NCBI RefSeq assembly: GCF_009765375.1
Contig: NZ_VTOK01000011.1
Span: 124,001 to 188,000, forward strand
Source: Alteribacillus sp. YIM 98480
Lineage (GTDB): Bacteria; Bacillota; Bacilli; Bacillales; Marinococcaceae
Direction of reading: 5' to 3'
Length of the DNA stretch: 64,000 nt
Part shown: positions 3,476 to 16,629 of the stretch, piece after piece
Position numbering within the stretch: the first letter of the stretch is position 1
How the letters are laid out: every line of letters begins with the position of its first letter
Program-made: the position numbers and the translations under genes
The notes under the pieces: model-generated
Databases searched by the model: none
Told to the model about the DNA's origin: nothing
The model's input: only the letters and a program-made list of their open reading frames with translations

Positions 3476-3502
3476 TACGAAAAAGAAAAAATAAAGGTTT
3501 CA
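3476..3502 (-). promoter_or_regulatory. sigma-W-type promoter of floT
   Basis: On the minus strand TGAAAC (3502-3497) is followed by 17 nt and then CGTA (3479-3476). The stretch after TGAAAC continues CTTT, as in extended sigma-W -35 elements. This is the consensus of the extracytoplasmic-function factor sigma-W, which drives yuaF-floT in B. subtilis. The leader to floT would be about 155 nt. Confidence 0.75.
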
Positions 3503-3574
3503 ATTTTAGATAGATTTATGTATTTCTTTGTCTAATCGAATCAATCTTCATATTTTGTTAGCTGCTCAAACAAA

Positions 3575-3735
3575 TAAGAAAAGCACAAGCGACTTGCTCA
3601 CGAGCGACAAGTCCGGGAGGGTCGACATATGGAAAGCTGATCTTTGCTTTCCGTTGACGGACCGAAAGAATCTCGAGCGAGTAGGCGCTGGATTAGACAT
3701 GTAAAACGCCAAATATTTATGCTTTCTTACCTTTT
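3575..3735 (+). repeat. MITE-like repeat, copy A (161 bp)
   Basis: Starts TAAGAAAAGC and ends TTTCTTACCTTT, so its outer bases form a short terminal inverted repeat (TAAGAAA/TTTCTTA). The interior has GGAAAGC-N8-GCTTTCC (with one change in this copy) and an outer stem pairing the GCGAC/GAGCGA and GGCGC segments. Six further copies lie in this window (see 14713, 17117, 22430, 33416, 43712, 61776). This copy has more substitutions than most. It lies in the floT/hut intergenic gap. Confidence 0.85.
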
Positions 3736-3738
3736 AAA

Positions 3739-3865
3739 GAAAACTTGGTTAGCGCCAAGCCTTTAGACTAAAGTGATTGCCTAGTTGCATTTATACCTGA
3801 TTTCCTCAACATTTTGACGATGTCGATGATTCATCCACGCTAAAATTTATACTTTTCTATCAATA
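3739..3865 (+). repeat. companion repeat to the MITE-like element (first copy)
   Basis: About 127 bp, beginning with the hairpin CTTGGTTAGCGCCAAG and including CTGATTTCCTCAACATTTTG and GTCGATGATTCATCCA. A close second copy is at 16982-17110. Here it abuts the right end of repeat copy A; at the second site it abuts the left end of copy C. It does not encode a protein. Confidence 0.75.
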
Positions 3866-3866
3866 G

Positions 3867-3906
3867 AAAAAAAGGATGCTGCTCCTACAGGAAAGCATCC
3901 TCTTTT
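3867..3906 (-). terminator. terminator of the hutP-hutH-permease unit
   Basis: AGGATGCT (3873-3880) pairs with AGCATCCT across a 12-nt loop. On the minus strand the hairpin is followed by eight T. It lies about 85 bp after the permease stop. The other side also has a CTTTTT tract, so it may act in both directions. Confidence 0.8.
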
Positions 3907-3989
3907 TGCCACATTATGATGACAGCTCTATTAACTAGTGCTGAGATGTATTAATTCCTAATATTTTGCTGGCCTAAAATGAAGATCGT

Positions 3990-5309
3990 TTATAAAATTA
4001 ATGCTGCGATTAAACCAAAAATTAAGAGAGGAATATTAAAATGTAAAAATGTTGGTACACACGTGTCCCAAATGTGATTGTGCTTCCCATCTGCGTTTAA
4101 ACCAGATGTTGGCCCAAGGGTGCTGTCAGAAGCTGGAGACCCTGCATCGCCCACTGCTCCTGCTGTACCAATTAATGCAGCTGTTGCTAGCGGAGAAAAG
4201 CCTAACGCACTACAAAGAGGTACAAATAGCGCAGCGAGAATAGGAATGGTTCCAAAAGACGAGCCAATTCCCATCGTTATAATCATTCCAACAATAAGAA
4301 TTGCAACAGCTCCAAAAAATTTGCTGTCACCAACAATAGTTGAAGATGTTTCGACTAACTCCTCTACAGCCCCAATATCTTGTAAAACGGTAGCATATCC
4401 AGAAGCAACCAGCATGACAAACGCGATCATCCCCATCATTTTAATGCCGTCGTTAACTATGTTTTCTCCTTCTTTAAACGGAACGATTCTGAATACTAAC
4501 ATTAGAATAATACCAGTAAGCGCTCCCAAAATTAGTGAGTCTGCAGCTAACTGCACGGCAAGAGCAGAAATAATAGCAATTATGGTGAAAAAGTGAGACA
4601 TTGTAAATATCATTTTCTTTTCTGTCGTTGCGGCAGTCTCTTCTTCTGCTGATATATCTTTCATCTGCTGAACGGATGTATCTCGATCTTTTCGAAAGGT
4701 TATAAATATAGCAAACAGTAGACCACATAACATTCCAATGCCTGGTAATAACAATGCGATTGGGATTTGACCAAGATTGATTGACATGCCATTCGCATTC
4801 ATTTCGTCTCTAATAATTCCATGAAAAATCAAACCGAAACCAGCAGGAATCATGACATACGGAGCTTTTAAGCCGAATGTTAAAGCTGTGGCTACTCCTC
4901 TGCGATCCAGCTTCATAGTGTCAAATAAGTGCAACAGCGGCGGAATCAAAATAGGAATAAAAGCAATATGTACAGGAACGACGTTTTGCGACAAACATGC
5001 GACTCCTGCGATGGTAAGTAGTAACACTGCTTTTTTTCCTTTTAAAACTTTTATTAAGTGTTTAACGAGAAATCCTGTTATTCCCGAGTAACCGATCATT
5101 ACTGCAAATGCTCCAAGTAAAATGTAGCTTAAGGCGGTGTTAGCCTGCCCTCCCATTCCAGAAACGAGCATTTCAATTGTATCCGAAAGTGATAATCCAG
5201 CAGCAGCCCCTGCTGAAAGGGCTGCAAACAGTATCGCCAGCACAACGTTTAGCCGCAACAAACTTAAAACCACCATAACAAAAACAGATATCACTACTGC
5301 ATTAAACAA
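3990..5309 (-). CDS. Na+/H+ antiporter-family permease, probable histidine/amino-acid transporter (YuiF-like)
   Basis: About 439 residues, almost entirely hydrophobic, with roughly 11-12 membrane helices. It resembles the NhaC-type/Na+-H+ antiporter family branch that contains B. subtilis YuiF. Visible family features are SQNVVPVHIAFIPILIPPLL near residue 110 and a C-terminal TAGAVGDAGSPASDSTLGPTSGLN segment. Its stop ends the hutP-hutH unit and it begins only 27 bp after hutH, so import of histidine or urocanate is the likely role; this is inference from context. I chose the TTG at 5309 because AAAGGAGAGGG lies just upstream; a GTG six codons earlier would overlap that ribosome site. Confidence 0.8.
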   Translation of the reverse strand: MFNAVVISVFVMVVLSLLRLNVVLAILFAALSAGAAAGLSLSDTIEMLVSGMGGQANTALSYILLGAFAVMIGYSGITGFLVKHLIKVLKGKKAVLLLTIAGVACLSQNVVPVHIAFIPILIPPLLHLFDTMKLDRRGVATALTFGLKAPYVMIPAGFGLIFHGIIRDEMNANGMSINLGQIPIALLLPGIGMLCGLLFAIFITFRKDRDTSVQQMKDISAEEETAATTEKKMIFTMSHFFTIIAIISALAVQLAADSLILGALTGIILMLVFRIVPFKEGENIVNDGIKMMGMIAFVMLVASGYATVLQDIGAVEELVETSSTIVGDSKFFGAVAILIVGMIITMGIGSSFGTIPILAALFVPLCSALGFSPLATAALIGTAGAVGDAGSPASDSTLGPTSGLNADGKHNHIWDTCVPTFLHFNIPLLIFGLIAALIL

Positions 5310-5336
5310 ATAACCCTCTCCTTTCACCTATGAAAT

Positions 5337-6857
5337 TTAAGAATGTACCGTTTTATTTTTCATTCCAACAGACGTTATTGAAAATTTTTTTATCCATCTG
5401 TACATCGCTTCTATATCTTTATAAAACATCCGATCAGAATCAATAAACGGGACAATGGTCCGGCCTGCTTCCAAAAATGCTCTTGTCATAGGTGCCATTT
5501 TGTTCTTTCCGCGATACTCAGCTGCCTGCATACTGCAGATTGCTTCAATCGCTAACACTCTGGATGCATTTTCAATCACCTTTGCTGTATGTCTCGAAGC
5601 TATCGTTCCCATACTGACATGATCTTCTTGATTTCCAGAAGAAGGAATGGAGTCAACACTTGCCGGATGAGTCAGCGTCTTATTTTCTGAAACAAGTGAT
5701 GCGGCCACGTACTGCATAATCATGGCACCGGATTGCAATCCTGGTTCCGGGCTTAAAAACGGAGGCAAATCATTCAATTGAGGATTAACAAGCCGTTCAA
5801 TTCGGCGCTCAGAAATGTTAGCCAGCTCCGCCATGGCAATCCCCATGAAATCCATTGCTAATGCAATGGGCTGACCATGAAAGTTCCCTCCGGAAATTAC
5901 TTTCTCTCCATTATTAAAGATAAGCGGGTTATCTGTCGCCGCATTCATTTCAATTTCAAGCTTTTCTTTAACATAATGAAGCGTTTGCCATGTTGCTCCG
6001 TGTACTTGCGGAATGCAACGGAGAGAATATGCATCTTGGACACGCAACTCTCCTTGTTTTGTTGTTAATTGACTGTCTTTCAAGTATTTTCGAATTCGCT
6101 CTGCTACATCTACTTGTTCTTGGTAGCCGCGTGCCCTATGAATTTCTTCATCAAACGCATCCATTATACCGCACAACCCTTCTATTGTGGTTGCAGCAAT
6201 TACTTCTGATTGATAGGCAAGGTTTTCTGCTTCTAAATAGGCAATAACGCCCATTGCTGTCATCGCCTGTGTACCGTTAATAAGTGCCAAACCTTCTTTA
6301 GCTGTTAACGTAATAGGCTCCATTTTTTCCTGTGTTAATGCATGGATGGCAGGTACTTTTTCCTCTTTATAAAATACTTCTCCTTCCCCGAGGAGTACTA
6401 AGGCTAAATGGGACAATGGCGCCAAGTCTCCGCTTGCCCCAAGAGACCCTTGCTGAGGAATGACCGGGTGAATCTGTTTGTTTACAAGCTCCAGAAGACG
6501 ATCAATAATAAGCGGACGCACACCAGAATACCCTTTCAGGAGGGCATTAGCCCTCAATACTAGCATTGCTCGTGAAACGGTTTCTGGAAAAGCTTCACCA
6601 ACTCCGCACGCATGCGAGTGAATTAAGTTTTTTTGGAGTACTTCCACATCTCCCTTTTGAATGAGCACATCGCTGAATTTTCCAAAACCAGTCGTAATTC
6701 CATAAATAACTTGTTGATTTTCCACGATAGAGTCTACTGCCTCGCGGCTCTTTTTCACATCCTCTATGCTTTTCTTTGCAGCGTCAACTTTCTCCCCATC
6801 AAACAATACTTGTTTCATTTCAGTAAAATTAAGTGAATGCCCTGTCAAGGTCACCAT
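5337..6857 (-). CDS. hutH: histidine ammonia-lyase
   Basis: About 506 residues, the usual length. It removes ammonia from L-histidine to give urocanate, the first step of histidine breakdown. The segment [14 protein letters not shown] around residues 138-150 holds the Ala-Ser-Gly triad (about 141-143) that cyclises into the MIO cofactor. [12 protein letters not shown] near residue 52 is the family's tyrosine loop, and the SGNFHGQP-type motif appears as [11 protein letters not shown]. The ATG at 6857 has GAGGAG 8 nt upstream. It is preceded by the HutP-regulated terminator (6901-6951), so expression should depend on histidine-bound HutP. It lies between hutP and a permease in one transcription unit. 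Confidence 0.97.
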
Positions 6858-6900
6858 ATTTCTCACTCCTCTAGTTTCTTTACTTCGTTAAAGCGCCAAT

Positions 6901-6951
6901 AAAAAAGGGGCTATATCAATGCAACGTTAACAGTCGCAGTGATATAGCCCC
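6901..6951 (-). terminator. HutP-controlled intrinsic terminator between hutP and hutH
   Basis: GGGGCTATATCA (6907-6918) and TGATATAGCCCC (6940-6951) form a perfect 12-bp stem with a 21-nt loop. On the minus strand it is followed by six T (6906-6901). Its position between hutP and hutH is the same as in B. subtilis, where histidine- and Mg-bound HutP prevents termination. Confidence 0.92.
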
Positions 6952-6971
6952 CTAAACTCTACTAATAACTG
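6952..6971 (-). promoter_or_regulatory. HutP-type NAG motifs abutting the hutH terminator
   Basis: In the minus-strand RNA just before the terminator stem, NAG triplets occur as CAG-UUAU-UAG (ending 6962) and UAG-AGUU-UAG (ending 6952), each pair spaced by 4 nt. This is the NAG-N4-NAG spacing recognised by HutP. The last UAG touches the first G of the terminator stem, as expected for an antitermination site. Confidence 0.7.
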
Positions 6972-6983
6972 TGGGCAGTTTAT

Positions 6984-7430
6984 TTAAATGTGATTAACAC
7001 CTAATCCAATTGTTTCATGTTCGGCCCCTTTTACCGGTGCACCAATCGTGCCATATAAGGAAACGGCAATCCATTCTCCTTCATTCTTATTTTCATAGGG
7101 TGTACCCCCCCGGACAATTGCAAAGCTAAGTCCTACTGTGCGCAGCATCGATCCTAATTGAACCTGTCCTCGTGTTACACCATGCAGTGATTCGATAATG
7201 GCATGGTACAATGCATGACTTTCACGATAAAGACCGGTTTCTACAATTTCATTCTTCTTCGCTGCTGTCTCAATAGCTGCTACCACTTTGTGAGCTTCCA
7301 TCGAGCCAACTTTTCCTGTGCAGCACTTCCAATCTAATTGCTTTATCTTTTCTAACTCTTCGCTCTTGTCATCGCTAAGTACTAGGAGAATAGCGCTTCT
7401 CCCGATACGAGAATCCTTACTTAAGGACAT
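6984..7430 (-). CDS. hutP: hut operon positive regulatory protein HutP
   Basis: 148 residues, the size of B. subtilis HutP, with the same start region ([10 protein letters not shown] against MTLHKERRIG). HutP is a hexameric RNA-binding antiterminator that needs L-histidine and a divalent metal. The conserved [20 protein letters not shown] block, the [21 protein letters not shown] block with the metal/histidine-binding histidines, and the end [25 protein letters not shown] are all present. I use the ATG at 7430; a GTG three codons earlier is also possible. It is the first gene of its unit, with its own promoter (7519-7548). Its leader carries a second NAG array (7475-7512), which suggests self-regulation. 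Confidence 0.96.
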
Positions 7431-7474
7431 TATAAACACTCTTTTCCCTCTCGATCTGATAACTTCAGACGAAT

Positions 7475-7512
7475 CTAATAACTAATATCTTATATCTTAT
7501 ATCTTATAACTA
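7475..7512 (-). promoter_or_regulatory. six-copy NAG array in the hutP leader
   Basis: Read on the minus strand, UAG, AAG, AAG, AAG, UAG, UAG occur at a strict 7-nt period (complement C at 7510, 7503, 7496, 7489, 7482, 7475), each separated by UUAU or AUAU. HutP recognises NAG triplets with 4-nt spacers, so this is twice the usual three-repeat site. It starts at or beside the predicted transcription start, so nearly the whole array would be the 5' end of the hutP mRNA. Confidence 0.7.
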
Positions 7513-7518
7513 ATAGTA

Positions 7519-7548
7519 ATTGTAAGCGTTTTTTCAAAACCATGTCAA
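7519..7548 (-). promoter_or_regulatory. sigma-A promoter of hutP-hutH with cre-like spacer
   Basis: TTGACA (7548-7543) and TACAAT (7524-7519) are 18 nt apart on the minus strand. The spacer/-10 contains AACGCTTACA, which matches the right half of the CcpA cre consensus but lacks the TG of the left half. Catabolite repression is known for hut in B. subtilis; the site here is only a partial match. Confidence 0.72.
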
Positions 7549-7587
7549 TAGATTTTTTAGTGGTTTAATATCTTGGTATTTCGTGCG

Positions 7588-7839
7588 TTAATCGCTTCCG
7601 CTAGGTAATTGATCTTCTTTTAGTATAGCTAATGTCATATCCGATACTACGATGTCTCCGGGACATACGTTCACTCTTTCAACTATTCCGCAGCTGCTTA
7701 TTTCTACCTTTTTGACTGAACCGTGAGCAGTTTTAATAGAAAAGAGAGGTTCCCATTCATGAACGAATCCTCCTCGATTAACGAAAACTTTTTGCACTTT
7801 CCCTTGGTATTCACTTTGGATTGTTCGATAGCTGCTCAT
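7588..7839 (-). CDS. small biotinyl/lipoyl-like domain protein in hut cluster
   Basis: 83 residues. It has the pattern of a biotinyl/lipoyl-attachment fold: GKVQKVFVNRGGFVHEWEPLF, then SCGIVERVNVCPGDIV and a closing LAILKED. The hairpin that normally carries the modified lysine (AMKM or ETDKA) here reads IKTAHGS, so no lysine sits at the expected tip. It may be a structural or binding protein rather than a carrier. AAGGGGG lies 8-9 nt before the ATG at 7839, which is why I prefer it to the ATG nine codons earlier. It follows the glutamate dehydrogenase gene by 17 bp and ends its operon. No specific function is recognised. Confidence 0.6.
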   Translation of the reverse strand: MSSYRTIQSEYQGKVQKVFVNRGGFVHEWEPLFSIKTAHGSVKKVEISSCGIVERVNVCPGDIVVSDMTLAILKEDQLPSGSD

Positions 7840-7856
7840 CTCTCTTTCCCCCTTTT

Positions 7857-9125
7857 TTACACCCATCCACGAAATGTTGAAGCTTCCGCCATTTTTCGGA
7901 TACCAACGATATAAGCGGCTAGACGATTGTCCACATGATGAAGTTTTGCTGTATCAATAACATTATGAAAAGCAGTAACGATTTTCTTTTTCAGTTTTTC
8001 TAATACTTCCTCCTCAGACCAGTAGTATCCTAAATTATTTTGCACCCATTCAAAATAGGAAACAGTGACACCCCCGGAGCTAGCCAGGATATCTGGGACA
8101 AGCAGCACATCTCGTTTTGTTAAAATTTTCGTAGCTTCTAATGTTGTCGGACCATTGGCGGCTTCAACGATAATTTCAGCTTTAATGTTCGATGCATTCT
8201 TTTCGGTGATTTGATTTGAAATAGCTGCCGGCACTAAAATATCACATTCACACTCGAGCAGTTCTTCATTTGTAATTGTGTTCGAAAATAAATTGGTTAC
8301 TGTTCCGAAAGAATCACGCCGTTCGAGTAAATAGTCAATATCCAGCCCGTCTTTATCATATAATGCGCCATCCGCGTCAGATATTCCCACAATAACGGCG
8401 CCTCGTTCGTTAAGAATTTGGGCTAAAAAGCCTCCTGCGTTACCAAATCCTTGAATAATTACCCTTGCACCATCTAAGTCAAGCTTTTTTTTCTTTGCTG
8501 CTTCTTCAACGCAAATGGTTACCCCCATAGCTGTTGCCGTTTCACGGCCATTTGAACCCCCAAGAACAATTGGTTTTCCGGTAATAAAACCAGGTGAGTC
8601 AAATTCACGAATGCGGCTGTATTCATCCGTCATCCAAGCCATAATCTGCGAATTCGTAAATACATCAGGGGCTGGAATATCTTTTGTTGGCCCTACGATT
8701 TGACTTATTGCCCGCACGTATCCTCTGCTTAACCGCTCCGTTTCTAAAAAAGACATCGCCCTAGGATCACAAACTATTCCACCTTTACCACCGCCAAAAG
8801 GAACATCGACAATGCCGCACTTTAAACTCATCCAAATGGATAAGGCTTTTACTTCATTTTCTGTTACAGAGGGATGGAATCGAACACCGCCTTTCGTTGG
8901 GCCAACTGCGTCATTATGCTGAGAACGATATCCGGTAAAAACTTGGACACTGCCATCGTCCTTTCTTATCGGTATCCGAACGGTCAATGTGCGAACAGGT
9001 TCTTTAAGCAGTTCATATACGTCTTCTTTATAACCCAGCTTTGATAAAGCATGTTTTATTTCATGCTGTGTTGCTGATAGTAGATCTGTCTGTTCACCCG
9101 TACTTTTGACACTTACTGCGTTCAT
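7857..9125 (-). CDS. NAD-type glutamate dehydrogenase (GudB/RocG family)
   Basis: About 422 residues. It catalyses oxidative deamination of glutamate to 2-oxoglutarate and ammonia. PFGGGKGGIVCDP near residue 100 holds the catalytic lysine region, GPTKGGVRFHP is the substrate-binding block, and IIQGFGNAGGFLA near 220 is the Rossmann nucleotide site. The ATG at 9125 has AAAGGGG 7 nt upstream; an in-frame start 15 codons earlier lacks one. Its place inside the hut operon fits removal of the glutamate made by HutG. Leu/Val/Phe dehydrogenases share the fold, but length and motifs favour glutamate. Confidence 0.88.
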   Translation of the reverse strand: MNAVSVKSTGEQTDLLSATQHEIKHALSKLGYKEDVYELLKEPVRTLTVRIPIRKDDGSVQVFTGYRSQHNDAVGPTKGGVRFHPSVTENEVKALSIWMSLKCGIVDVPFGGGKGGIVCDPRAMSFLETERLSRGYVRAISQIVGPTKDIPAPDVFTNSQIMAWMTDEYSRIREFDSPGFITGKPIVLGGSNGRETATAMGVTICVEEAAKKKKLDLDGARVIIQGFGNAGGFLAQILNERGAVIVGISDADGALYDKDGLDIDYLLERRDSFGTVTNLFSNTITNEELLECECDILVPAAISNQITEKNASNIKAEIIVEAANGPTTLEATKILTKRDVLLVPDILASSGGVTVSYFEWVQNNLGYYWSEEEVLEKLKKKIVTAFHNVIDTAKLHHVDNRLAAYIVGIRKMAEASTFRGWV

Positions 9126-9179
9126 ACTATTACCCCTTTTATCGTTTCCCTGATTTCTTTTTTGTCGCAACTTTTATCC

Positions 9180-10517
9180 TTAAAGTAATAAATAAGCCAG
9201 AGGAGTCGTGATTATAATCGTTAATACCACACGTTCAATCCAAATCACAATTAATTTCGGAATACTTATTGGGATATCCGTAGATAAAATACATGGTATT
9301 AACGCTGAGAAAAACAAAATAGCTGAAACGGACAACGTACCAATCACAAATTTTGTAACCATAGCTGCTTCTGTAACCAGAAGGGCCGGGAGAAACATTT
9401 CCGCAATAGAGACGGCGGATGCCTTAGCTGCAAGCAATGGATCAGGAACCTGTATCATCCAAGTAAATGGATAAAAAATGTAACCCAAGATGTCAAACAT
9501 AGGAGTGTATTCAGCAAGTACTAATCCAAGCAGCCCAACTGACAGAATGGATGGTAAAATAGCCATTGTCATAATCAATCCATCCTTCAAATTAAGCCAA
9601 ATGTTTTTTAGAAGCGATGGAGAGCGTTCTGCTGCTTTCATAGCTTGAAACCAGGCAGCTTTTAGACGATTCTTTTCAATGATGTGCTCAGGACGGCCTT
9701 CCTGGTTATTGATATATTGGTCACTCACTTTACTTAACGGCCAAATCCTTACAGTGATAGCGGTTACAAGAAAGGTCACGAATAAGGTTACCCAGAAGTA
9801 AGTGTTCCAAATTTCCATTAAACCAAGTGTTTTTGCCACCACAATCATAAACGTTGCTGAAACGGTGGAAAACCCGGTTGCAATAATTGTCGCTTCCTTT
9901 ATCGTGTATTTTCCTTCTTTGAAAACGCGGTTTGTAATTAATAAACCTATCGAATAACTGCCTACAAATGATGCGACAGCATCAATAGCAGACCGGCCAG
10001 GCGTTTTCCAAATCGGTCGCATTATAGGCTGCAAAACAACTCCAATAAATTCTAACAACCCATATCCGACCAATAAAGCAAGAAAAACAGAACCAATGGG
10101 TACCAGTAAACCAACTGGCATGACAAGATTTTCAAAAAGAAATGGACCCATACTCGGGTCGGACAGCCAATCAGGACCAAAACTAAAAACAAGCATGAAG
10201 GCGACGACAGCCCCAAAAATTTTAAAAATGGATAAAATCATATTAGCCAAATCTTTATTCCATGAATGATTAATAAAAGGATAAACCGCTCCAGAAATAA
10301 TAATTAGTAATACATAGTATGGAACAAAAGCTGTAAATGTCGTTTGAATATAGGTAACGAAATGGTCGAGAGCAATAGAAGCAGTTCCATTTACATTAAT
10401 TGGAATAAAAAAAGTAAAAATACCGATTAGACTAAAAATGATAAATTTTAATAAATGATTGCTCGTCCATTGCTGTTCTTGGTACTCAGCCGGGGACTCC
10501 TTTTGATGATTTTCCAT
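9180..10517 (-). CDS. YjiH family membrane protein (nucleoside-recognition/Gate domain)
   Basis: 445 residues with about ten membrane segments. The internal parts PGRSAIDAVASFVGSYSIGLLITNRVF and KEATIIATGFSTVSATFMIVVAKTLG are typical of Gate/nucleoside-recognition domains in the YjiH family. The family's transported substrate is unknown. It lies between hutG and glutamate dehydrogenase with the ATG 54 bp after hutG and a GGGGAGGC ribosome site. Context suggests movement of a compound linked to histidine breakdown (histidine, urocanate, formamide or glutamate), but that is inference. Confidence 0.78.
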   Translation of the reverse strand: MENHQKESPAEYQEQQWTSNHLLKFIIFSLIGIFTFFIPINVNGTASIALDHFVTYIQTTFTAFVPYYVLLIIISGAVYPFINHSWNKDLANMILSIFKIFGAVVAFMLVFSFGPDWLSDPSMGPFLFENLVMPVGLLVPIGSVFLALLVGYGLLEFIGVVLQPIMRPIWKTPGRSAIDAVASFVGSYSIGLLITNRVFKEGKYTIKEATIIATGFSTVSATFMIVVAKTLGLMEIWNTYFWVTLFVTFLVTAITVRIWPLSKVSDQYINNQEGRPEHIIEKNRLKAAWFQAMKAAERSPSLLKNIWLNLKDGLIMTMAILPSILSVGLLGLVLAEYTPMFDILGYIFYPFTWMIQVPDPLLAAKASAVSIAEMFLPALLVTEAAMVTKFVIGTLSVSAILFFSALIPCILSTDIPISIPKLIVIWIERVVLTIIITTPLAYLLL

Positions 10518-10571
10518 ATATATGCCTCCCCCTATAGAAATATTTTAATAGGAGAGGAACTTACTTGTCCC

Positions 10572-11558
10572 TCACCTTTTACAATAACCCGTCAAAAACG
10601 ACAGCATGGTATGGACAGCACTTTTGACTGATTGTTCTGCAACGTCTTTTCTCGGGTCTAAACAAACAATATCCATAGCCTTTACTTTGATGTGTTCTCC
10701 GGCCATTTGAACAGCTTCAAATAATTCTTCTGAGTACATTCCTCCTGGTGTTGCTGCTGGAGCTGCCGGGCCATGTACGATATCTAATACATCCATATCT
10801 ACAGTCAAATAGATGGTATCTACTTCATCTTCCAATTGACGTAAAGCATTGTTGATAGCATTAGAAATTCCCTTTTTTCTTGCCTGTTTCATCGTTGTAT
10901 AATGAAGTCCAGCTTTGTCTGCGAAATCCTTAAGTTCCTTAGCGTTAAAAAAACCATGCAATCCAATATTATGAACGTGGTTTCCCTGAATGGCTTCACT
11001 TTCAATCAGGTTACGTATTGGTGTACCGTTCGCTGGGCCGATTAATTTAGGGTCTCTCAAATCAAAATGCGTATCTAACTGTAATATTCCAATTTTTTCA
11101 TTTGGGTGGGCTTGCTTCCAGCCTTTGACCAGCATCGCTGTAATGGAATGATCGCCGCCCATTGAAATTGGCAATGTATGTGGATGGTAAGTTCGCATAG
11201 CGACCATAGCTTCTTGAATTTGTTGATGTGTATATTCAATATTGGTCACATGTTGTTTCACATTTCCAAGGTCGATAGCCTTTAACTGAGCCAAGTCAAT
11301 GTCTTCATCCAAGTTATAAGTGCTAAATGCCTTCCACGCCTGCCTCATTGCTTCTGGGTTTTCACTAGCAGCAGAAGTACTGATCGATGATTTTGAAAGC
11401 GGGACTCCTAAAATGGTTACGTCATAATCATCCCAATTAAGTTTGGCTTCCTCTGCGGTTTCAATCCATTCATGAACTTTTATATCTTTGCTTTTATCGG
11501 TTTGACGAGACCAGATCATACTCGGTTTGTCTAACATTGGATAAGGATAGCTGCTCAT
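10572..11558 (-). CDS. hutG: formimidoylglutamase
   Basis: 328 residues of the ureohydrolase (arginase) family. It hydrolyses N-formimidoyl-L-glutamate to glutamate and formamide, the last hut step. Metal ligands are seen as GGDHS near residue 137, QLDTHFD near 163 and TVDMDVLD near 252. It starts at the ATG that overlaps the hutI stop (ATGA), so translation is coupled. The neighbouring hutI and hutU genes settle the substrate; arginase or agmatinase is much less likely. Confidence 0.93.
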   Translation of the reverse strand: MSSYPYPMLDKPSMIWSRQTDKSKDIKVHEWIETAEEAKLNWDDYDVTILGVPLSKSSISTSAASENPEAMRQAWKAFSTYNLDEDIDLAQLKAIDLGNVKQHVTNIEYTHQQIQEAMVAMRTYHPHTLPISMGGDHSITAMLVKGWKQAHPNEKIGILQLDTHFDLRDPKLIGPANGTPIRNLIESEAIQGNHVHNIGLHGFFNAKELKDFADKAGLHYTTMKQARKKGISNAINNALRQLEDEVDTIYLTVDMDVLDIVHGPAAPAATPGGMYSEELFEAVQMAGEHIKVKAMDIVCLDPRKDVAEQSVKSAVHTMLSFLTGYCKR

Positions 11559-12829
11559 TGCAACTGCCCGCCTTTTACTAACGGGATCCCTGCTTTTACG
11601 ACCGTATCCACGTGATTCATTCCATATTTATACGATAATGTGAGATAGTTTGGCACATCAAAAATGGTGACATCCGCTTTTTTTCCAGGTTCAAGACTTC
11701 CGATTTCTGCTGCGCACCCAATTGCGTGAGCGGCATTAATAGTAGTCGCTGTCAATACTTCCTCTGGTGTCATACCCATTTTTAAGCAGCCTAAATTCAT
11801 AATGAATGGAAGTGAAATCGTTGGAGAAGACCCCGGGTTCGCATCGGTCGATAAAGCCACTGCTACACCGGCATCAATCATTTTTCTTGCTTCGGCAAAT
11901 TCAGCCATCAAGAAAAATGCTGTTCCGGGTAATAGCACACCAACTACTCCTGCTTCAGCCATTTTCTTTATTCCATTCTCTGAAGCTTTTAGTAAATGAT
12001 CCGCAGATATAGCTCCAATCGATGCCGCTAACTCTGCTCCTTCATATGGTTCAATTTCGTCTGCGTGAATTTTTGGTATCAGCCCGTATTCTTTTCCAGC
12101 TTCTAAGACTTTTCTCGACTGTTCCGGAGTAAATACGCCTCTTTCACAAAAGACATCATTGAATACAGCCAGCTTTTTATCAGCTACTTCCGGAAGCATC
12201 TCTTGAATCACACGATCAACAAATTTATCAGGGTCGTCTTTTTCATCCATTGGAATAGCATGAGCACCCATAAAGGTCGAAACAAGGTCAACCGGATGGT
12301 CATTATTTAGCTGTTCAGCCACTTCGAGCTGTTTCAGCTCGTGTTCAAGCGTTAATCCGTATCCACTCTTTGCTTCCACTGTAGTTACACCATGCAGAAG
12401 AAATTGATTCAACCTTTTTTTTGATTCATCGTACAACTGCTCATAGCTAGCTTGCTGAGTTGCTCGAGTAGTGGCATGAATACCGCCGCCCGACTGCATG
12501 ATATCCATGTACGTTCGTCCTTTTAGACGCATGGCGTATTCATTTTCTCTCGTTCCGGCGTGAACAAGGTGGGTATGGGGATCAACAAGTCCTGGAGCAA
12601 CCACCTTTCCCGTCGCATCTATTTGTTCAGCAGACTGAAAATGCTCTTGGTATTTTTCACGGATTTCCTTATCAGGACCCGCTTCGACAATGTTACCGTC
12701 TTCAATAAAGAGGCTTCCATTTTCAATCAAGTTTAATTGAGACATAGCCTCTTTTGCAGCTGGACCATCCGTGTTGCCAGCCATCGTAATCAATTGTGCA
12801 GCGTTTGTAATAAACATTTTTTGTGCCAT
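11555..12829 (-). CDS. hutI: imidazolonepropionase
   Basis: 424 residues of the amidohydrolase family. It opens imidazolone-propionate to formimidoylglutamate. DPHTHLVHAGTRENEYAMR near residue 80 carries the first metal histidines, IHADEIEP near 252 the third, and STDANPGSSPT near 327 the catalytic aspartate. GAGGAGGGG precedes the ATG. It follows hutU by 18 bp and overlaps hutG by four bases. Confidence 0.96.
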   Translation of the reverse strand: MAQKMFITNAAQLITMAGNTDGPAAKEAMSQLNLIENGSLFIEDGNIVEAGPDKEIREKYQEHFQSAEQIDATGKVVAPGLVDPHTHLVHAGTRENEYAMRLKGRTYMDIMQSGGGIHATTRATQQASYEQLYDESKKRLNQFLLHGVTTVEAKSGYGLTLEHELKQLEVAEQLNNDHPVDLVSTFMGAHAIPMDEKDDPDKFVDRVIQEMLPEVADKKLAVFNDVFCERGVFTPEQSRKVLEAGKEYGLIPKIHADEIEPYEGAELAASIGAISADHLLKASENGIKKMAEAGVVGVLLPGTAFFLMAEFAEARKMIDAGVAVALSTDANPGSSPTISLPFIMNLGCLKMGMTPEEVLTATTINAAHAIGCAAEIGSLEPGKKADVTIFDVPNYLTLSYKYGMNHVDTVVKAGIPLVKGGQLQ

Positions 12830-12847
12830 GTATTTACCCCTCCTCTT

Positions 12848-14512
12848 TTATTTGCGAAGCATTGGTACTTGAATCCCTTTATTGTGAGCTGTCTTTTCGG
12901 CGAGTTTATATCCTGCATCCACATGACGAACTACACCCATTCCTGGATCTGTTGTTAACACTCGTTGAAGGCGCTTTTCTGCATCTTTCGTTCCATCTGC
13001 TACGATTACCATTCCAGCATGAAGGGAGTAACCCATACCAACACCTCCGCCATGGTGAACACTAACCCAGCTTGCCCCGCCAACACTATTAATAAGTGCA
13101 TTAAGAATTGGCCAATCACTAACCGCATCACTGCCATCTTTCATGGATTCTGTTTCCCGGTTCGGGGATGCAACAGATCCTGAATCAAGATGATCACGTC
13201 CAATGACAATCGGCGCCTTTAATTCTTCGCGTGCGACCATATCGTTAATTATTTTTCCAAACTTGGCCCGTTCTCCATAACCAAGCCAGCAAATGCGGGA
13301 AGGAAGTCCTTGAAAACTAATTTTTTCTTGAGCCATACGTATCCAGTTGCATAAATGTTCATTGTCACTAAATTCTCTTAAGATAACTTCATCCGTTTTA
13401 TAAATATCTTCTGGATCTCCTGATAACGCTACCCAGCGAAATGGACCTTTTCCTTCGCAAAACTGCGGCCTAATATAAGCTGGCACAAACCCAGGAAAAT
13501 TAAAAGCATTCTCAACGCCTTCATCTTTAGCAACCTGGCGTATGTTATTTCCGTAATCAAATGTAACGGCTCCTTGTTTTTGCAAATCAAGCATGGCCTG
13601 TACATGAGATGCAATTGTTTGTTTGGAAAGCTTTATATAGCGATCTGGATCGTTTGCACGAAGTTCAATAGCTGATTGCAAATCCATGTCCGCGGGAACA
13701 TAGCCAGTGAGCGGATCATGCGAGGACGTTTGGTCCGTTAATACATCGGGTATAAAACCCAATTCATTCATTTTTGGCAAAATTTCTGCTGCATTTCCCA
13801 ATAAACCAATAGAAAGAGCCTTTTTATTCTCTTTTGCTTCTTTCGCTAAACGTACCGCTTCTTCTAAGCTATCTGTCGAAACGTCTAGATATTTCGTTTC
13901 AATACGACGGTCGATTCGGTGTTGATCAATTTCAATGGCAATACATACTCCGCCATTCATTGTTACAGCCAATGGTTGAGCTCCACCCATGCCGCCCAGT
14001 CCTGCAGTTACCGTAATTGTTCCTTTCATGTCTGAGCCAAAATGCTGTTTGGCACACTCGGCAAACGTTTCATAGGTTCCTTGTACAATCCCCTGACTTC
14101 CAATGTAAATCCAGCTTCCTGCCGTCATTTGTCCGTACATCATCAAACCGTTCTGATCAAGCTCATGAAAATGCTCCCAGTTTGCCCAAGCCGGTACAAG
14201 ATTAGAATTTGCAATCAACACCTTAGGGGCATCTTTATGGGAAGGAAAGACTGCAACTGGCTTTCCGGATTGAACCAGTAATGTTTCGTCATCTTCAAGT
14301 GTTTTCAGCGTGTCGACAATCGCCTCGTAACATTCCCAATTACGAGCAGCTTTCCCAATCCCCCCGTATACGACGAGATCTTCTGGATTTTCCGCCACGT
14401 CTGGGTGAAGATTATTGTTTAACATCCGCAAAGCTGCCTCCTGCAGCCAGCCTTTTGTATTCAAATCTGATCCTGTATATTGTTTCACTTGCTTGTATTT
14501 TGTATCTGTCAT
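12848..14512 (-). CDS. hutU: urocanate hydratase
   Basis: About 554 residues. It converts urocanate to imidazolonepropionate with a tightly bound NAD+ that acts as an electrophile. The N-terminal [15 protein letters not shown], the [15 protein letters not shown]-binding loop near residue 170, and the C-terminal [19 protein letters not shown] block are diagnostic. I prefer the ATG at 14512, six nt after AAAGGATG; an ATG three codons earlier overlaps that site. It is the first gene of the six-gene unit. A cre-like site lies upstream at 14631. Confidence 0.96.
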
Positions 14513-14630
14513 TTCATTCATCCTTTCTTCGTTTTTGGATTAATTAAATGGTATCAACGGATACAACGAAAAAATAGATGATTAACTTTCGATTTTCTAT
14601 AAAAATATGCAATATCTATAAAAAAATATT

Positions 14631-14645
14631 CGAAAACGCTTTTAT
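14631..14645 (-). promoter_or_regulatory. possible cre (CcpA) site upstream of hutU
   Basis: The minus strand reads ATAAAAGCGTTTTCG, which matches the 15-base cre consensus at 13 positions; the G of the TG and the last base differ. It lies about 120 bp before hutU in an AT-rich region where I cannot place a convincing promoter. Confidence 0.4.
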
Positions 14646-14712
14646 TTTATAGAACAAAATTTAGAAAAGATAAATTCATATGAAATTAGGTTAGTCAATT
14701 ATCAAGTTGAAG

Positions 14713-14872
14713 TAAGAAAAGCGCAAGCGCCTTGTTCACGAGCCAAGTTCTGAAGGGGCGGCATATGGAAAGCTGATCTTTGCTTTTCATTGACGAATCG
14801 AAGGAATCTCGAGTGAGTAGGCGCTGGAGCTAGACATGTAATACGCCAACTATTTATAATTTCTTACCTTTA
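14713..14872 (+). repeat. MITE-like repeat, copy B (160 bp)
   Basis: Same ends as copy A (GTAAGAAAAGCGC left, TTTCTTACCTTT right) and the same GGAAAGC/GCTTT hairpin, with a small deletion in the GAGC-GACAAG part. It lies between hutU and the AraC-type regulator. The remaining gap to 15156 holds a small GAGCGA/TCGCTC hairpin at 14882-14899 and no gene. Confidence 0.85.
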
Positions 14873-15096
14873 TAAAAAAACGAGCGAAATATATCGCTCA
14901 TATTTATGTTGTTTAATTGTTAAGTACCCAAACTTTTTATATTTGCGTTTTTCCTGCGGTTCCAGGATATGTCATTTCATAAGGATTTAGTATAAAATTT
15001 AATTCGGAGTTTGTTAGCACGTTAAACTGTAAGCATAATTCACGAACTGTTTTCCTGTTAAAATAGCTTCACGTGGGATACGTGAGCCTAAAAATT

Positions 15097-15129
15097 ACCC
15101 CGTAACACCTTAAAATTGTGTCACGGGGG
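15097..15129 (-). terminator. terminator after AraC-type regulator
   Basis: CCCCGT-A-ACAC (15098-15108) pairs with GTGT-C-ACGGGG (15118-15128) with one internal mismatch. On the minus strand it is followed by TAATTTTTAGG; on the plus strand by TTCTTTTG. A second hairpin, TCACGT/ACGTGA at 15069-15085, lies just downstream. Confidence 0.65.
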
Positions 15130-15156
15130 TTCTTTTGTCCCATTTTCACTTTTTAA

Positions 15157-16629
15157 CTAATGGAAACGCCTATATTCTCTCGGTGTTTGTCCAGTATGCT
15201 CTTTAAACACACGACTGAAATAATTTGGGTTGTTGAAGCCTATAGAGCGGGCTATGTTTTGAACACTTTCATCCGAGGAAAGGAGTTCTTTTGCTTTTTG
15301 AATACGCATGGATAACAGAAGATCACGGAAAGAGCGATTATATTTTTTTGAAAGTAAATGGCTAAGGTAGGAAGGACTCCGACCTACATGTGCAGCCACT
15401 GTCTTTAAATCCAACTTGGAATCAGCAAAATTTTTTTCCATATACGAAACCGCTGCTTCTACCGCATCTCCCTTCACTTTAGAAGGCTGCTCCTCCATTG
15501 TCTGGACAAGATAGTTTGAAAAAAGAATGATGTCCTGAACAATACGGTAGAGCACAGGGCTATATAAAATTTTATCAAACACATTCTTGTAATATTCTTC
15601 TCGATCTTTACTATTCATTCCATTTCGATCCATAAACCGCCGAATTTGGGCAAGAATACTTGTTAAACGTGTTCGCAGCAATCCAGGCTCAGGGTATGGC
15701 GGTACCAAATCAAAAAACTCTTCATACATCCACTTTTTAATATCATTTCCTCTCGCTTCTTCTAACATATAAACCCACTTTCTTTGATCTTCCATTGTTA
15801 AAAAAGGGTCCATATCTTTCCAAGGATGAAAGCGTTCTGTCTCAAATACCTGTTGATACCCAGTAAAAAAAGTCGTTTCCATTACTTTGCGCAGCTTTAA
15901 ATAGATTTGGTGAAGCGATTCTTCACCACTTTGCGAATGCACAACAATAGCTAACGGACTTCCTGCTTTTAGCTCCCATTCCCGCAAAAAGCGCTGAGCC
16001 TGTGTGAATGTCTCTGTAAACTCGTGATGAAATACAAGTACAATTCGATCACTTGTCGAGAAAACCGATGGTTCAAAGTAAAAATCAAATTGTTCTATAA
16101 ATTTTCGTAAATAGGTTAAATCGTTTACATACTCCGTTTTTAATAAATAAACAGGGTAGGGATAAGGATTGCGATCTTCAATAAACAATGATTCATAGTC
16201 CAACGCTGGCCTTGTTAATTCGGGATGTACCTCTTTAGAGTAATAAGAAAGATTTCTTATAGCTTGCTGTAAGGAATGTTTAACACTAGGCGGAGCAAGC
16301 GGCTTTACCCACAGATCTATTGCTTGAAGTTCCATTGCCTGCATGGCTCGCTCAAAAGTGGGCTCTGCAGTAAGTGCAATAACCTGCTTTGTATATCTGC
16401 GTATGTAAAATTTAAATATCTCCCATTTGTCTTCAGCAATCATATCTAATTCTATACATGCAATGTCGGGCAAAGAGTTCTCCAGATCATCTAACAAATC
16501 CGATAAATGATAGGCTGTTCGAATAGTTGAAATGGGTAAAGAATATTTGGAAATAAACCATTGAATTCCTAGAACTTCTTGCTTATCACGGTCAGAAATT
16601 AATAACTTATATATTTTCCCCACCTCCAT
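15157..16629 (-). CDS. AraC-family response-regulator-like transcription factor
   Basis: 490 residues. The N-terminus (about 5-125) looks like a receiver domain (KLLISDRDKQ at the start, VIALTAEPTFERA and WVKPL near the end), but the phosphoacceptor region reads CIELDMIAEDKWE and is atypical. A middle region of about 250 residues is not recognised. The C-terminus (about 390-490) is a double helix-turn-helix AraC domain: LKTVAAHVGRSPSYLSHLLSKKYN and IARSIGFNNPNYFSRVFKEHTGQTPREYR. No histidine kinase gene is adjacent. It may regulate the neighbouring hut operon, but nothing in the sequence proves this. The only ribosome-site-like stretch (GGAGGTGGGG) lies on and after the ATG, so the start is uncertain. 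Confidence 0.82.
   Translation of the reverse strand: MEVGKIYKLLISDRDKQEVLGIQWFISKYSLPISTIRTAYHLSDLLDDLENSLPDIACIELDMIAEDKWEIFKFYIRRYTKQVIALTAEPTFERAMQAMELQAIDLWVKPLAPPSVKHSLQQAIRNLSYYSKEVHPELTRPALDYESLFIEDRNPYPYPVYLLKTEYVNDLTYLRKFIEQFDFYFEPSVFSTSDRIVLVFHHEFTETFTQAQRFLREWELKAGSPLAIVVHSQSGEESLHQIYLKLRKVMETTFFTGYQQVFETERFHPWKDMDPFLTMEDQRKWVYMLEEARGNDIKKWMYEEFFDLVPPYPEPGLLRTRLTSILAQIRRFMDRNGMNSKDREEYYKNVFDKILYSPVLYRIVQDIILFSNYLVQTMEEQPSKVKGDAVEAAVSYMEKNFADSKLDLKTVAAHVGRSPSYLSHLLSKKYNRSFRDLLLSMRIQKAKELLSSDESVQNIARSIGFNNPNYFSRVFKEHTGQTPREYRRFH

Follow-up and report, generated by a model that had tools for sequence, protein, structure and literature searches.

A putative HutP-binding RNA site at the predicted 5′ end of the hutP mRNA, shared among Bacillus-related genera and longer in Alteribacillus sp. 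YIM 98480

The hutP message of Alteribacillus sp. YIM 98480 is predicted to open with six NAG triplets at a strict 7-nt period, and this array is probably a conserved RNA site for HutP at the very start of the mRNA, an old three-triplet element that has been expanded here. Judging from the comparison of leaders, the old element would comprise three NAG triplets with 4-nt spacers, placed at or a few nucleotides from the predicted +1 and kept with hutP in many Bacillus-related genera. If so, the HutP circuit would have an unmodelled branch: a second conserved target, fixed in many genera to the opening nucleotides of the protein's own message. HutP is an antiterminator of known structure, and the accessible descriptions assign its RNA target to a single terminator. 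A HutP site in the leader of hutP is mentioned nowhere in the open-access literature searched, in the portions available; the original papers on HutP fall outside that scope and may note one.

The features concerned lie on the minus strand of the window, meaning the whole 64,000-nt stretch of DNA that was analysed, and are listed in the direction of transcription.

7519..7548, minus strand: hutP promoter, sigma-A-type TTGACA-N18-TACAAT, matching 11 of 12 consensus positions (-35 TTGACA at 7548-7543, 18-nt spacer, -10 TACAAT at 7524-7519)
7475..7512, minus strand: leader array of six NAG triplets, UAG AAG AAG AAG UAG UAG, with spacers UUAU AUAU AUAU AUAU UUAU (triplets at 7512-7510, 7505-7503, 7498-7496, 7491-7489, 7484-7482 and 7477-7475)
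7455..7469, minus strand: short inverted repeat TCTGA-AGTTA-TCAGA, lying 3′ of the array and 5′ of the ribosome site and shared with the sister genome
6984..7430, minus strand: hutP, with ATG at 7430 and a possible GTG at 7439; PF09021, 113 bits
6952..6971, minus strand: terminator-side NAG site, CAG-N4-TAG, TAG-N4-TAG (triplets at 6971-6969, 6964-6962, 6961-6959 and 6954-6952)
6901..6952, minus strand: hutP-hutH intrinsic terminator, GGGGGCTATATC...GATATAGCCCCTTTTTT; the fold of 6893-6978 has -35.8 kcal/mol and z -6.6
5337..6866, minus strand: hutH, histidine ammonia-lyase (PF00221), an open reading frame with a GTG start

The array reads TAG-TTAT-AAG-ATAT-AAG-ATAT-AAG-ATAT-TAG-TTAT-TAG on the minus strand (5′ to 3′, 7512..7475), just 3′ of the hutP promoter, and the sequence-only reading had its coordinates, its count of six, its exact 7-nt period and its 4-nt A/U spacers right. 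That reading had also placed the start of the array where the TTGACA/TACAAT promoter predicts transcription to begin, and this agrees with the promoter found at 7548-7519: TACTAT separates the -10 box from the first triplet, and the usual promoter spacing puts the predicted +1 at or next to that triplet. The promoter, as TTGAC...TA-AAT, was aligned in five family relatives. Between the array and hutP no intrinsic terminator was seen in the window by eye or by a terminator scan, a simple tool whose output also omits the hutP-hutH terminator, and no Rfam family matches window positions 3500-16000 at E up to 1. The array is the only period-7 NAG run of more than four triplets in the window, where a mean of 0.08 runs of five is expected per 64 kb on both strands (60 first-order Markov simulations); this null ignores repeat growth by slippage, so the argument is carried by comparison with other genomes. 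Runs of more than three triplets occur at only two other places in the window, 3750 on the plus strand and 24652 on the minus strand.

The genome encodes a single HutP, which scores above the PF09021 cut-off, is full length, aligns end to end with PDB chains 1vea/1wmq and adjoins both hutH and the NAG terminator site, so that at least three triplets exactly 4 nt apart (six, in fact) stand beside a cognate full-length protein in the same genome. A seven-G run at window 7111-7105 gives the protein an extra glycine (RGGTPYEN) that is absent from 13 aligned relatives, the sister genome among them, and that is either a recent in-frame insertion or a homopolymer error. Upstream of the hutP promoter, at 7588-14521, lies a gene run that we take from the translations to include hutU, hutI and hutG, together with a Gate-domain protein, glutamate dehydrogenase and a small biotin/lipoyl-like protein; no NAG array was seen by eye ahead of hutU in the window. 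A second histidine ammonia-lyase of the same genome, 81% identical (L187 1495-2994, G000:C28), follows an apparently decayed hutG fragment on another contig, and the 600 nt upstream of it contain no strict chain of three.

The comparison of hutP leaders in related genomes for a 7-nt NAG period, which the sequence-only reading had proposed, was carried out on the 120 nt before each HutP match. An alignment of the window HutP matched 403 encoding loci among genome contigs, of which the best 80 were used, and 85 further leaders were added from genomes of the same family, order and class, these being loci matched by HutP searches together with one or two places for each genus that was still missing. 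With the window this made 166, reduced to 159 leaders by removing 2 identical sequences and 5 duplicates; 13 without a called promoter left 146, and 7 that repeat another's array region left 139 distinct leaders. Left out of the added set were L001 (the window itself), L003-L005 (same contigs as L097, L096 and L105), L027 and L033 (taken as near-copies from their scores) and, as duplicates, L141, L144, L145, L147, L160, L164 and L168; the counts for CodY-box placement, hairpins and run simulations precede removal of the last duplicates. An anchored strict array was defined as at least three NAG triplets at period 7 starting 3-11 nt after the -10 box. The species counted are not independent samples, and the survey statistics ignore kinship.

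Among the best 80 of the 403 loci, a chain of at least three NAG triplets at period 7 occurs on the sense strand of 56 leaders, compared with one on the antisense strand and 1-8 for other periods from 4 to 14. Dinucleotide shuffles of these leaders gave a mean of 4.1 with a chain and a maximum of 10 in 200 runs, and other 120-nt windows upstream in the same loci contain a chain in 40 of 1742 cases. These strict chains span 21 genus names, a Syntrophomonas MAG (L129) included, with diverged spacers. Over all leaders the period-7 chain is found anywhere in the 120 nt in 87/159, against 2-17/159 for other periods from 4 to 12.

Position is equally restricted. Counted from the end of the -10 box, 91, 69 and 58 of the 139 distinct leaders have AG at offsets 6, 13 and 20; the neighbouring offsets 7 and 14 have it in 26 and 33, and each remaining offset up to 44 in 1-25. 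Of 102 control promoter-like sites elsewhere in the best 80 loci, 10, 8 and 5 have AG at 6, 13 and 20, and none has an anchored chain of three. The anchored strict chain is present in 65/139 leaders at period 7 and in 0, 0, 6, 1 and 2 at periods 5, 6, 8, 9 and 10. Three triplets are by far the commonest number (55 of the 65 arrays), followed by four (6), five (3) and six (1, the window itself). The other 74 leaders fall short of it, with two triplets in 31, one in 31 and none in 12; a strict chain lies elsewhere in the 120 nt of 17 of these and 57 have none, so that 82/139 contain a strict chain somewhere, the 17 unanchored ones partly owing to a wrongly called promoter. Strand, period, anchoring and control counts together reject chance or a simple satellite as the source of the three-triplet core.

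The first AG stands at a nearly constant distance from the -10 box (median 6, interquartile range 6-7, range 0-20; n=67 distinct leaders), while the spacing between last AG and start codon is variable (median 29, interquartile range 24-38, range 7-53 nt; n=67), and the site is therefore held to the transcript start and not to the ribosome site. Both distances were almost unchanged when duplicates were still included. Leaders of the Ureibacillus type read UAGUUAUUAGACAUUAG. The B. subtilis-type locus L049, whose HutP begins MTLHKDRRI where the PDB chain has MTLHKERRI, carries CAG-TTAC-TAG-TTAT-CAG. In the available text of PMC3463425, whose transcript starts come from the literature or from prediction, a B. 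subtilis cre lies at +209 of the hut start; moved onto L049, this distance sets +1 at 2-3 nt past the first AG, and transcription in that species might therefore begin too late to include the first triplet.

The leader array also resembles the established HutP target. In the terminator region between hutP and hutH, a chain of at least three NAG triplets (steps of 7 or 8) is present in 66 of the best 80 of the 403 loci: two chains in 4 (L108, L131, L133, L135), six triplets in 3 (L101-L103) and a single chain of 3-5 in 59. The consensus of the aligned terminators of 47 further loci (from 52, namely L002, L006 and those of L007-L058 included among the added leaders, with five duplicates left out) is AGCCnATAGTnATnAGTTAAnAGGGGGCTATAT. 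In the 65 anchored leader arrays the N of the three successive NAG triplets is U in 48, 60 and 55, and A occupies position 3 of the two spacers in 62 and 57; for the strict terminator sites (67 distinct ones) the corresponding figures are 47, 46 and 37 for U and 47 and 51 for A (52 and 65 for A or G). Chance chains of three elsewhere in the best 80 loci (159 chains) have U in 27, 26 and 38 and A in 64 and 41. Leader and terminator sites thus share U before AG and A or a purine at position 3, features that a search for NAG does not impose, and the extended grammar can be written UAG-YYAY-UAG, a form usable for finding further HutP targets. The window array has A at position 3 in all five spacers.

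Array and terminator site also tend to occur together. A terminator site was assigned to 144/159 loci by an automatic test and to seven more by eye (L031, where the site lies beyond the tested stretch, L054, L152, L162, L166, L173 and L177), giving 151; of these seven, L031, L162 and L166 have a strict leader array. The strict leader chain is found in 87/151 loci with a terminator site, against 0/8 of the HutP homologues without one (L037, L042, L048, L050, L100, L172, L175, L176). This co-occurrence is support and not proof, since 7 of the 8 have no called promoter and their true leaders may lie outside the stretch. L037, L042, L048 and L050 had only 196 nt in the automatic test, but inspection of about 600 nt by eye revealed neither a trace of hutH nor a NAG cluster ahead of a G-rich stem. 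Genome G002, of the same genus as the window, has hutH and no HutP match, and the 600 nt upstream of its hutH contain no strict chain of three. By eye, what looks like a decayed HutP-type terminator, GGGGGCTAT...ATAGTCC followed by three T, precedes this hutH (L185 1380-1470); it has no NAG cluster. Conservation is not universal, and the strict leader array is missing in several groups that have the terminator site, for instance L137 (Geobacillus) and the similar L034/L036, as well as L046, L053, L055 and L058.

The earlier proposal that HutP binds the 5′ end of its own mRNA stands as a site reading, because period, strand, position and terminator grammar are shared and the array is absent, in the few cases available, where HutP or the terminator site is absent; the binding itself is what we infer from these regularities. 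The weight that had been given to six triplets does not carry over: the comparison does not support six as a special length, and the loading of several hexamers is not needed when 55 of the 65 anchored arrays have three. Like the B. subtilis hutP-hutH terminator site, described in the accessible sources as three triplets per cluster, the window array consists of NAG with 4-nt spacers on the same mRNA; it differs from that antiterminator site in opening the mRNA, in lying about 500 nt upstream, in having six triplets instead of three and in having no adjoining terminator. For this last reason it is better classed as a HutP-type site than as a member of the antiterminator class, L054 being an exception elsewhere. 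The TRAP sites of the trp operon are similar in that regular NAG triplets are read by an amino-acid-activated ring protein, but they comprise about eleven GAG/UAG repeats with 2-3-nt spacers, and the 4-nt spacers of the window array set it apart from them.

The HutP hexamer has two NAG-binding faces, and the two RNA faces are named in the title of a 2008 paper by Gopinath, as given in a reference list. One 5′ cluster and one terminator cluster would fill one hexamer per transcript, and a tether model is built on this arithmetic. A hexamer loaded with histidine and Mg2+ would capture the leader site of the growing hutP transcript with one face as soon as that site emerges, and would thereby be held on the same RNA. 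Its second face could then seize the NAG cluster ahead of the hutP-hutH terminator while the terminator is still unfolded, and its grip on the 5′ end might also protect the message. HutP would then be a two-faced clamp joining the beginning of the growing hut transcript to the terminator about 500 nt downstream, with the hutP coding region looped out, the array at +1 acting as an RNA loading site and antitermination working in cis, a common but overlooked element of HutP control among Bacillus relatives. The logic is comparable to that of phage N on nut sites, where protein and RNA form a loop, and the leader site would offer a use for both faces where the terminator has one cluster. This extension of the site reading is put forward tentatively, as a possibility on which we would not yet rely: the published model, with its two clusters spaced by 20 nt, has no need of a tether, and L101-L103, with six NAG triplets at the terminator, keep the leader array too. 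The leader site can be tested directly by mutating AG at +1 and following the response to histidine, mRNA half-life and read-through.

A relation between the lengths of the two sites was not used as evidence. Leader array length correlates negatively with the length of relaxed terminator chains (Spearman -0.29, p 0.0003, n 149, with kinship ignored and the window leader counted as 4), but not with that of strict terminator chains (Spearman -0.05, p 0.54). The NAG cluster at the window terminator, in comparison with the canonical three at 7 nt, has a 3-nt phase break that the sister shares, and a long leader array likewise accompanies a terminator phase broken by 3 nt in Salipaludibacillus L076/L090. 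This pairing in the window genus and Salipaludibacillus is suggestive and might reflect compensation, but independent cases are few and the last terminator NAGs of L076/L090 may be their ribosome site.

If HutP does occupy the first nucleotides of the message, it could act there by shielding them from RppH and RNase J, so that histidine stabilises the hut message with no tether at all. The strict anchoring of the arrays to the predicted +1 is what this account would expect. GlpP on glpD, an unrelated protein on an unrelated RNA, serves as a model. According to the accessible text of PMC7430163, GlpP is an antiterminator that also stabilises its mRNA, although no separate 5′-terminal site is named there. 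In four family relatives with three triplets, extra pairable nucleotides lie between the predicted +1 and the triplets, and arms flanking the triplets near the transcript start can pair (L096, 11 pairs; L097, 12; L006, 9; L105, 7), with differing sequences; no such hairpin is seen in the window. Stems of at least 9 pairs occur in 3/73 cases against about 0.6 expected after flank swapping, fold z-scores range from +0.01 to -1.95, and L006 folds best in another way, so that a conserved hairpin was set aside as a lead only. Protection as the whole function of the site seems rather unlikely to us.

Autoregulation, in which leader-bound HutP represses or helps hutP translation through the ribosome or a standby site, would find some footing in the 7 of 67 leaders whose last triplet is less than 15 nt from the start codon, and in L091, L106, L129 and L135, where by eye that triplet appears to reach the ribosome site. 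The window array ends 44 nt short of the hutP ATG, and across leaders the 7-53 nt between last AG and start codon contrast with the hardly varying spacing, median 6 nt, that separates the -10 box from the first AG. Feedback on hutP had been suggested from the sequence; in the form of a covered ribosome site it is accordingly not a general rule, and we regard autoregulation as an unlikely main function.

A DNA operator in place of an RNA site is the next alternative: the stretch after +1 would be the CodY operator of the hut operon, which we take to be what is called hutOA, or the site of another repressor. The CodY consensus is the DNA palindrome AATTTTCWGAAAATT. CodY-like boxes (at most 4 mismatches to this consensus) are present in 39/139 leaders where 14 are expected from mononucleotide shuffling, and before duplicate removal the box starts 13-16 nt after the -10 box in 28/44, overlapping the second or third AG; L007, L016, L018, L019, L040 and L047 are among the loci with this arrangement, and some leaders have two in-phase triplets followed by a CodY-like box. 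The B. subtilis hutP operator itself has overlapping CodY sites with two and four mismatches, according to the accessible text of PMC10415144, so that in some species the CodY operator occupies the same stretch just downstream of the hut promoter. Yet 54 of the 65 strict arrays have no box, 28 of the 39 boxes lie in leaders without an anchored strict array, and the best match around the window array has 6 mismatches. A 7-nt direct repeat on one strand would also suit a palindromic dimer site poorly, and the terminator site, an RNA target, has the leader grammar. CodY as the sole explanation is rejected by the boxless arrays, and an operator reading in any form appears improbable. The two elements coincide in 11 leaders, and in some lineages CodY and the NAG array seem to be two overlapping signals; it is possible that CodY on DNA and HutP on RNA compete for one stretch there.

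A functionless minisatellite, an A+T-rich 7-nt repeat produced by slippage, is very improbable: TRF does call a tandem repeat at 7473-7515 (period 7, 6.1 copies, 86% matches) and copy number does differ between sister species (six and five, with five also in L060 and L148), but position, strand and period are kept across 21 genus names with diverged spacers, nothing comparable appears on the antisense strand or at other periods, and slippage would account only for the step from three to six.

That step concerns the expansion of the putative HutP site and not its origin. HutP matches were found in 6/29 family genomes, the window genome and its sister included. The sister genome G001 (L002, same genus) has five triplets at the same place, while the other four have exactly three, as TAG-N4-TAG-N4-TAG or with one CAG. 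The usual leader element would therefore be of three triplets, and the six of the window and five of the sister look like tandem expansions; together with five-triplet arrays in Alkalihalobacillus sp. BA299 (L060) and in G082 (L148), the numbers indicate that the 7-nt unit has been expanded repeatedly. Slippage is the simplest account of the three extra copies in the window. The earlier remark that the array is not only a simple satellite holds for its three-triplet core, conserved in period, strand and position, while the additional copies may well be satellite-like in origin.

Two loci of the survey hint at further arrangements. In L054 (G439, same class; 2160-1920, minus strand), four in-phase UAG triplets are followed by a terminator-like hairpin, GGGAGTTACAGG...CCTGTAGCTACTCCCTTTTTG, ahead of hutP, and this could be a HutP-controlled attenuator of hutP itself. 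In L037, downstream of a high-scoring HutP homologue and with no hutH, many TAG triplets at irregular spacings precede another gene (1955-2050) and possibly represent another kind of HutP target.
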